From Polynucleobacter sp. MWH-UH2A (GTDB taxonomy: Bacteria; Pseudomonadota; Gammaproteobacteria; Burkholderiales; Burkholderiaceae): a stretch of DNA of 64,000 bases. The stretch's first letter is position 1, and every line of letters starts with the position of its first letter. A program made the position numbers and the translations under genes. The DNA is taken from the NCBI RefSeq assembly GCF_018687195.1, contig NZ_CP061321.1:1178001-1242000 (forward strand), given 5' to 3'. Below, in pieces: positions 48,793-54,735 of this stretch. The notes below the pieces were generated by a model that was given only the letters and a program-made list of their open reading frames with translations, was not told where the DNA came from and did no database searches.

Positions 48793-49065
48793 ATGGCACG
48801 GATGGTTCAATGCATCAAACTCAATAAAGAAGCTGAGGGCTTGGATTTCGCCCCCCTTCCTGGCGAGCTTGGCAAACGAATTTGGAATCAAGTCTCTAAA
48901 GAGGCATGGGCTGGTTGGTTAAAACAGCAAACGATGTTGATTAACGAGAACCGCCTCAATATGGCCGACCCTCGCGCCCGCCAGCACCTTTTAAAGCAAG
49001 TAGAAAAGCATTTCTTTGAAGGCGGTGCCGATACCGCCCAAGGCTTCGTACCGCCTACTGAGTAA
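48793..49065 (+). CDS. yggX: Fe(2+)-trafficking protein YggX family
   Basis: A 90-residue protein of the YggX family, which protects iron-sulfur clusters from oxidative damage and helps iron supply. The start [20 protein letters not shown] carries the single conserved cysteine; the central HTH-like stretch is [20 protein letters not shown]. Length is standard. It lies 32 bases after argA on the same strand and may be co-transcribed. Downstream is a structured noncoding region that ends in a strong terminator. Confidence 0.95.
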
Positions 49066-49099: not shown

Positions 49100-49139
49100 A
49101 ATCTTCAATTAATTTTTCATAAATCCGATTTTGAAGATT
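49100..49139 (+). other. Hairpin in the yggX 3' region
   Basis: AATCTTCAA (49100-49108) pairs perfectly with TTGAAGATT (49131-49139) across a 22-base loop. It has no T-run, so it is not a typical terminator. It lies before the -35 box of the sRNA candidate, which begins with the last bases of the second arm. Confidence 0.4.
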
Positions 49140-49166
49140 GACATCGCATTTACTGAGGCATAGGAT
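49138..49166 (+). promoter_or_regulatory. Promoter of the candidate sRNA
   Basis: A perfect TTGACA (49138-49143), a 17-base spacer, and TAGGAT (49161-49166). Predicted start is about 49173, at the foot of the first hairpin. Confidence 0.6.
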
Positions 49167-49172
49167 GAAATT

Positions 49173-49330
49173 GTAGCAAGGCAGATATTGTGCTTCGCTA
49201 CATTGGCGAAAGCCATTAAAAATAAGCGCATCTATGTGCTTATAAGGCTAAGGAACTAGATACCTTCCGAGCGCCTGCGCCATGCGAACCATGGCAAACA
49301 ACCCGATGGGCATACCCCGTCGGGTTTTTT
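49173..49330 (+). ncRNA. Candidate structured small RNA of about 158 nt
   Basis: This gene-free stretch folds, by hand pairing, into a row of hairpins. Hairpin 1: 49172-49177 with 49197-49202, extended inside. Hairpin 2: TGGC-GAAA-GCCA at 49204-49215 with a GNRA loop. Hairpin 3: 49222-49230 with 49235-49243, nine pairs. Hairpin 4: GCCATG with CATGGC at 49279-49295. Last, an 11-bp terminator with six T residues. A consensus -35 with 17-base spacing lies upstream. It has no ORF and does not match tmRNA, RNase P, 6S or SRP RNA signatures I know. Role unknown. Confidence 0.55.
49300..49330 (+). terminator. Strong intrinsic terminator of candidate sRNA / yggX
   Basis: Eleven pairs between 49300-49310 and 49316-49326 (one G-T) with a five-base loop, then T-run to 49330. 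It also separates the convergent rpiA gene. Confidence 0.9.
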
Positions 49331-49350
49331 AATGTCAAAAGAATAAGACC

Positions 49351-50061
49351 TTAAAAGGTAATGCGGCTGACACCCGTTGCATTGCTTACTAAAAGCACAT
49401 TGGCCTTTTCTTTAGCAAACAAACCAACAGTAATCACGCCTGCGATTTGATTGATCTGGGATTCCATCTGAATTGGGTTAGCAATCCGCAAGCCAGCCAC
49501 ATCCAAGATCCAACCTCCGTTATCAGTGACAAAAGGCTCACTTGGTGTTTGGCCTAGATCAGCGCGCGTAGACTTAGATGAACGCAAGCTAACCGTACCC
49601 CCAAGCTTTTCTAATTCACGGGTAACCCCCCCTTTAGCTAGGGGAATGATTTCTACAGGCAAAGCAAAGTTACCGAGTACGGGAACCTGTTTTGAGGCAT
49701 CGCAAATACAAATAAATTGCTTAGCCATTGAGGCGATAATTTTTTCACGGGTAAGCGCTCCGCCACCGCCTTTAATCATGTTGCCTTTGGGATCAATCTC
49801 ATCGGCACCATCAACATAAGCAGGCAAACCTTGAACCTCATTTGGATCAAGCACTTTAAAGCCATGCTTAAGCAGCCTCTCGGTAGTTGCATTTGAACTA
49901 GATACAGTGCCGGCAAAGTGATCTTTATGTGGAGCTAAGGCATCAATAAAGCAATTGGCAGTAGAGCCTGTGCCTACACCCAGAATCTGACCTACGGGCA
50001 ACTTGAGTACCTCGTCACGGGCAGCCTCACCCACCATTTGCTTGAGTTGATCCTGATTCAT
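49351..50061 (-). CDS. rpiA: Ribose-5-phosphate isomerase A
   Basis: A 236-residue enzyme that interconverts ribose-5-phosphate and ribulose-5-phosphate. Conserved motifs are [51 protein letters not shown] with the catalytic residues, [20 protein letters not shown] and GWILDVAG. Full length. It is divergent from transaldolase (tal), so the two non-oxidative pentose-phosphate genes share one intergenic control region. Confidence 0.97.
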
Positions 50062-54648: not shown

Positions 54649-54735
54649 GCCCAGGTGGCGAAATTGGTAGACGCACCAGCTTCAGGTGCTGGCGATCGTA
54701 AGGTTGTGGGGGTTCGAGTCCCTTCCTGGGCACCA
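54649..54735 (+). tRNA. tRNA-Leu (anticodon CAG)
   Basis: An 87-base cloverleaf with encoded CCA. Acceptor GCCCAGG (54649-54655) pairs with CCTGGGC (54725-54731), discriminator A, then CCA. The anticodon stem CCAGC/GCTGG holds the loop TTCAGGT, giving anticodon CAG, which reads CTG. A long variable arm follows, as in class II tRNA-Leu, and GGTTCGAGTCC is the T arm. TATAAT lies nine bases upstream of the mature end. Confidence 0.97.

Follow-up and report, generated by a model that had tools for sequence, protein, structure and literature searches.

A structured RNA between yggX and rpiA in Polynucleobacter is probably a free-standing small RNA gene of the HRC-28-1 motif

Introduction

The gap between yggX and the convergent rpiA gene of Polynucleobacter sp. 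MWH-UH2A contains a structured stretch of DNA, and this locus raises the question whether the stretch is a small RNA gene in its own right or a part of the yggX mRNA. The window, which is the whole stretch of DNA analysed, spans 64,000 nucleotides (C1:1178001-1242000) of a 2.02-Mb single-contig genome. The genus is described as abundant in freshwater in the available text of PMC7522526, and no experimentally studied Polynucleobacter sRNA was noticed in the literature, which was covered in part. An RNA motif of this place was published as HRC-28-1 with 33 examples, mostly from Polynucleobacter; according to the available text of that paper, a gene for the oxidative damage protection protein PRK05408 lies upstream, rpiA lies downstream and is always opposed, the last of the six stems is an apparent intrinsic terminator, and the authors suggested that the motif is perhaps a structured 3'-UTR element of the upstream gene (PMC8632094, RNA Biol 2021). 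Within the partial literature coverage, the name HRC-28-1 was found in no other paper, and no paper was found stating that the motif is a free-standing gene. Since the motif is already known, what is added here is the free-standing-gene reading as against the published 3'-UTR suggestion. We propose, with a probability of about 0.55 for the statement as a whole, that a free-standing HRC-28-1 gene encodes an Hfq-bound trans regulator pairing with mRNAs through its hairpin loops. If this is true, a catalogued motif becomes an sRNA gene open to experiment, for which predicted ends, a promoter, a covariance model and strains with natural deletions are at hand, and a published suggestion that was based on gene order, as far as the available text goes, would be revised.

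The locus and its relation to known RNA families

The gene order at the window locus is yggX (+), RNA (+) and rpiA (-), and the features are listed below with the number of base pairs showing two-sided change among the copies.

48793-49065, + strand: yggX (Fe2+ trafficking / oxidative damage protection), upstream neighbour outside the RNA; PF04362, 138.5 bits
49138-49143, + strand: putative -35 element TTGACA; TTGAC in 49/49 aligned loci, sixth base A, G or T
49161-49166, + strand: putative -10 element TAGGAT, 17 nt after the -35 element, conserved in the alignment
49173-49330, + strand: small RNA (HRC-28-1 motif), 158 nt from the predicted +1 to the last terminator U; supported by fold, covariation and the R1 match
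49173-49201, + strand: hairpin P1, 10 pairs with a conserved CAG...GUG at the loop; two-sided change at 7/10 pairs
49204-49215, + strand: hairpin P2, a UGGC-GAAA-GCCA tetraloop; two-sided change at 3/4 pairs once distant copies are added
49222-49243, + strand: hairpin P3, nine pairs around UCUA; two-sided change at 8/9 pairs
49245-49276, + strand: hairpin P4, outer stem 49245-49248/49273-49276 and inner stem 49252-49255/49265-49268; two-sided change at 8/8 pairs
49279-49295, + strand: hairpin P5 (GCCAUG...CAUGGC); two-sided change at 4/6 pairs
49300-49330, + strand: putative intrinsic terminator, 11-pair hairpin P6 (49300-49326) followed by a T-run; two-sided change at 5/10 pairs
49351-50061, - strand: rpiA, convergent downstream neighbour outside the RNA; PF06026, 184.2 bits

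By place and architecture the window RNA is a member of HRC-28-1, the comparison being made with the published description, as far as available, and not with a consensus. The genus (127/186 genomes), yggX upstream and opposed rpiA (PF04362 and PF06026) and the six stems including the terminator all agree with that description, whereas the published account of 33 examples and a possible 3'-UTR differs from the conserved promoter, the 127/186 genomes and the copies away from yggX found here. The covariance model R1 scored the window RNA at 171.7 bits, with the window copy being among the sequences used to build it. The description of the gene as unannotated in the original prediction therefore held for Rfam 15, in which the RNA locus gave no match at gathering score, but not for the literature, where the motif had appeared in 2021.

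Eleven loci with divergent copies likewise gave no Rfam match at gathering score, and nine weak hits near the window locus (E up to 10; best anti-hemB, E 0.12) were at chance level and taken as such. Anti-hemB, Burkholderia RNA 7 (RF02837), ends in a similar hairpin and terminator, but it reached 18 bits against a cut-off of 49.5 and its match covered only 49266-49333 (P5 and terminator). The 6S RNA (RF00013) is also free-standing, structured and of comparable length; it was rejected, having no match in the window and a separate gene in the same genome at G000:C1:697157-697375 (L112; 59.7 bits). The lack of 6S signatures noted from the letters was thus borne out, and the general Rfam scan similarly gave no match to tmRNA, RNase P or SRP RNA. 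At gathering score, Rfam matched nothing else in the window than a tRNA at 54649-54732.

A coding role of 49173-49330 was rejected since a conserved reading frame was absent in 49 aligned copies, in agreement with the claim that the stretch has no ORF. In the three frames a stop was first reached after a median of 15, 4 and 14 codons, and the start of the longest start-to-stop frame fell at 16 different positions, with 13/49 at the first base.

Predicted ends of the RNA

The predicted TTGACA/17/TAGGAT promoter was present at 49138-49166 and was found to be conserved in 49 aligned loci, the TAGGAT bases being kept in 49/49 at five positions and in 48/49 at one. The G at 49173, 6 nt past the -10 element, is the putative +1 and was kept in 49/49, which is consistent with the start expected near this position. 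The pattern TTGAC[A/G/T]-N16/17-TA[G/A]NNT-N6-G was observed in 75/75 distinct upstream sequences (63 from yggX sites and 12 from copies elsewhere), and 10 of its 12 positions were matched in 0.27% of shuffled upstreams. Such a pattern does not agree with a yggX 3'-UTR element devoid of its own promoter. Mean column identity over the 49 loci was 0.50 in the upstream 60 nt, 0.94 in the -35 element, 0.62 in the spacer, 1.00 in the -10 element, 0.87 in the transcript and 0.60 in the downstream 30 nt. Furthermore, the distance from the yggX stop to the -35 element ranged from 14 to 81 nt across 68/68 loci, with the promoter retained throughout. The promoter string alone was not above chance (2 found versus 6.3 expected in shuffles of 4.5 kb), and the promoter is credible because it is conserved across loci, the string by itself being unconvincing. 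These results support a sigma-70-type promoter that would start the RNA at 49173.

The 11-bp terminator with a T-run was located as predicted, with its hairpin at 49300-49326. Terminator-like sites as a class were barely above chance (6 found versus 4.4 expected in shuffles of 4.5 kb), and the conservation of P6 supports an intrinsic terminator of the RNA's own that would end it at 49330. The hairpin region 49296-49330 matched the model on the reverse strand too, and at three loci where the RNA has been lost (L212, L216 and L040) the terminator persisted between yggX and rpiA with little or nothing else of the RNA. The terminator is perhaps bidirectional, serving the convergent genes, and P6 may also terminate transcripts of yggX and, on the opposite strand, those of rpiA.

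Fold and covariation

The minimum free energy of the RNA was -65.1 kcal/mol as compared with -42.4 (sd 3.9) for shuffled sequences (z -5.84), and none of the 200 shuffles was as low. Five hairpins and the terminator are supported by this fold and the covariation in it, so the serial arrangement in the original prediction was right and its count of four was low; the hairpin with a GAAA tetraloop and the one with nine pairs around TCTA were both located, as P2 and P3. Among 48 distinct close sequences, two-sided changes that keep the pair occurred at 15/47 pairs, and 98.9% of cells were paired versus 95.0% in shuffled and 34-41% in slid alignments. When distant copies were included (44 distinct sequences), two-sided compensatory changes were seen at 35/47 pairs in 262 cells, and 97.1% of cells were paired versus 85.2% shuffled and 34-43% slid, in an alignment that was fitted to the covariance model and is hence biased towards structure. 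The conservation and compensatory changes expected of real hairpins were therefore present in relatives. Counts of distinct sequences were preferred, as the loci of the two collections overlap in genomes (L035 and L180 are identical in the RNA). P2 was nearly invariant among the copies at yggX sites, and the outer stem of P4 was the weakest, with 89.6% of cells paired. Two divergent copies away from yggX, folded independently, gave the same series of hairpins (z -5.61 and -5.96).

Distribution within and beyond the genus

By blastn, 124 of 186 genus genomes gave matches, at least seven of which were only short and chance-like. At E up to 0.01 the covariance model R1 matched 127/186 genomes, including two terminator scars (G071 and G087), and model R2 also matched 127/186 at E up to 1e-4, with one doubtful (G145) and one cut by a contig end (G136). 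From R1 to R2, G071 and G087 drop out and G048 and G145 enter. The candidate copy in G145 (L199:1553-1725; 54.7 bits) is very divergent with a poor fit of P1, and its upstream sequence, having 9/12 promoter positions with unchanged spacing, was excluded from the promoter count. Two further matches were taken as chance, one of 27.2 bits in G117 that looks by eye like a terminator hairpin and one of 20.9 bits in G131.

Partial samples of the family and the order, both larger groups, were also searched. R1 matched 50/398 genomes of the family sample (47 in the genus and three outside), and R2 matched 14/399 of the order sample (six in the genus and eight outside). All 11 matches outside the genus (24.8-36.5 bits) were counted as chance. 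In the six alignments inspected, the terminator gave most of the fit, and the best of them (L187) fitted other parts loosely too; the upstream sequences of the 11 had 4-7/12 promoter positions against a shuffled mean of 6.4. R1 found no true copy at 57 yggX loci from other genera and non-matching relatives, with weak reverse-strand or terminator matches only. Searches of more than 40 genomes used stricter filters under which weak copies may be missed; a laxer-filter search of 20 genomes (G000 and 19 without the RNA) gave no further convincing copy, the extra matches being below 28 bits. With no convincing copy outside the genus in the partial family and order samples, the RNA gene is so far found only in Polynucleobacter.

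Possible mode of action

Hfq-dependent trans-encoded sRNAs are known to have their own promoter, an intergenic place and an intrinsic terminator with a U-tail. The sequence of the window RNA resembles this class in all three features, and the genome encodes Hfq (PF17209, 104.1 bits), while a genome search did not find ProQ. The Hfq of P. asymbioticus appears in a table within the available text of PMC7522526. A trans-acting regulator is likely as the product of this locus. We hypothesize that a sigma-70-type promoter would start the transcript at 49173 and its own intrinsic terminator would end it at 49330, that the transcript would fold into five hairpins and the terminator, and that Hfq would bind the U-tail and the hairpin loops would pair with mRNAs. 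By inspection, the best candidates for pairing are the P4 loop with the pyrimidine-rich (CU-rich) 3' arm and the UCUA loop of P3. The pairing of an Hfq-bound RNA through its loops is the tentative part of the proposal, rated somewhat below even odds. The RNA differs from the Hfq-dependent class in that a long single-stranded seed under conservation was not observed: the longest run of conserved positions unpaired in the ensemble was about 3 nt, which is not typical of a conserved sRNA seed, and no classic seed is evident.

Protein binding is a serious rival to mRNA pairing, although on balance an unlikely one. Here the free-standing gene would act by its structure, and in the manner of 6S and CsrB-type RNAs its product would bind and titrate or guide a protein and not pair with mRNAs. 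The conserved positions are mostly stems and short loops (the GNRA loop of P2, UCUA of P3 and a G..G in the P1 loop), a long unpaired conserved run is absent, and the helices covary despite large sequence change, all of which fit such a role. However, the transcript has a single GGA and is thus unlikely to be a CsrA sponge, the 6S gene lies elsewhere, and no protein partner is known. At a similarly low probability, a genus-specific RNA gene may have moved as a promoter-terminator unit, settled by yggX in one lineage, and may work via its conserved structure, with protein binding or loop-loop contacts in place of a linear seed.

A stretch of 26-27 nt resembling P2 was observed antisense within a reading frame in seven related genomes (L241-L247; e.g. 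L241:1789-1814). The frame is CobD/CbiB-like by inspection, and the stretch could be a pairing site or a chance match of the P2 inverted repeat. It is not claimed as a target, being confined to relatives and of a kind inflated by that inverted repeat. An eighth P2-like stretch (L248) lies on the same strand as its frame, in a different gene.

Copies at and away from yggX

The place of the RNA was monitored in the 127 matching genomes, and it was yggX-rpiA in 115, elsewhere in 11 and unassigned in one (G145). Among the yggX places listed, the RNA lay within 600 nt of yggX in 113/127 genomes and farther in 10/127; of the remaining four, G168 has yggX alongside, G136 has rpiA alongside, G182 has yggX on a separate contig and G145 is the unassigned one. 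The 11 genomes hold 12 copies away from yggX, and in six single-contig genomes the RNA and yggX are about 217-254 kb apart. G134 has two divergent copies on different contigs (L143 and L144), the only such case among the matches listed. No match to ArgA, YggX, RpiA or Tal was found within about 1.5 kb or up to the contig end at 11 of the 12 loci; the twelfth, L198, was judged by its reading frames.

A PIN-like frame lies 5' of the RNA in G050, G055, G127, G019, G001, G126 and G048 (one frame farther in G001). TRAP-like frames occur near the RNA in G050, G055 and G048 in the stretches inspected, TRAP-like genes are also present in G130, and G128 and G127 share 97% identity over 3.1 kb. The neighbours are AzlCD-like and LysR genes in G182, and in G134 a HemW-like gene and a solute-binding protein at one copy and an HD-domain gene and a Bug-like receptor at the other. 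Pfam was used for the PIN gene of G050 and for the LysR, solute-binding and HD proteins, and the other names were read from the sequence by inspection. In G182, the YggX at C7:7588-7858 (L235) is broken near residue 76 by one TGA, with a split match.

In 30 chosen genomes yggX was located, of which 19 lacked the RNA by the model, eight had it elsewhere and three had it at yggX. Of the 27 genomes that lack the RNA at yggX, 26 had a yggX-rpiA gap of -19 to 93 nt and one had a non-adjacent rpiA, whereas the gap was 229-257 nt in the three with the RNA at this site.

A free-standing small RNA gene of 158 nt is very probable from these sequence comparisons because the promoter accompanies the RNA at other loci, the helices covary, copies exist away from yggX and the yggX-rpiA gaps are short where the RNA is absent; the original prediction of a gene and not only a 3' UTR is supported on the same grounds. 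The conservation of both ends points to an independent transcription unit with an intrinsic terminator. A counter-point is that the RNA lies behind yggX on the same strand in 115/127 genomes, where read-through from yggX is possible. A dual-use RNA, in which a primary transcript from 49173 is accompanied by a 3' fragment cut from the yggX read-through mRNA, draws on this shared strand and the probably common terminator, but it is improbable, as the conservation is explained without it. Slightly less probable still is the published suggestion of a 3'-UTR element stabilising or terminating the yggX mRNA: it accords with the 115/127 sites that follow yggX on its strand before rpiA and end in a terminator, but the RNA carries its own conserved promoter, the element is not always downstream of yggX (12 copies in 11 genomes lie at other places), and many RNA-less yggX genes have a short gap or a different hairpin before rpiA.

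History of the RNA at yggX

The terminator of the RNA alone follows yggX in G071, a piece of P5 and the terminator are left in G087, and L040 resembles these; all three remnants are apparent deletion scars. A tree of joined ArgA, YggX and RpiA was made with 63 chosen leaves, comprising 16 of the 19 RNA-less sites (L227, L230 and L233 omitted) and L040, the eight with the RNA elsewhere, 34 yggX-site loci and four outgroups. The order of events read from it is tentative, as a number of its supports are low and it represents three adjacent genes and not the species. Its deepest branches are RNA-less, and the next ones have the RNA elsewhere or absent. The yggX position is confined to a single clade with a support of 0.948; inside this clade, seven places lack the RNA and one has it elsewhere. 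On this tree yggX does not appear to be the original site of the RNA, and the pattern suggests repeated losses, some leaving the terminator only. The RNA has apparently been lost several times and would therefore be dispensable. The labels changed 11 times on the tree, whereas 500 shuffles gave 24.7 changes on average and never fewer than 18.
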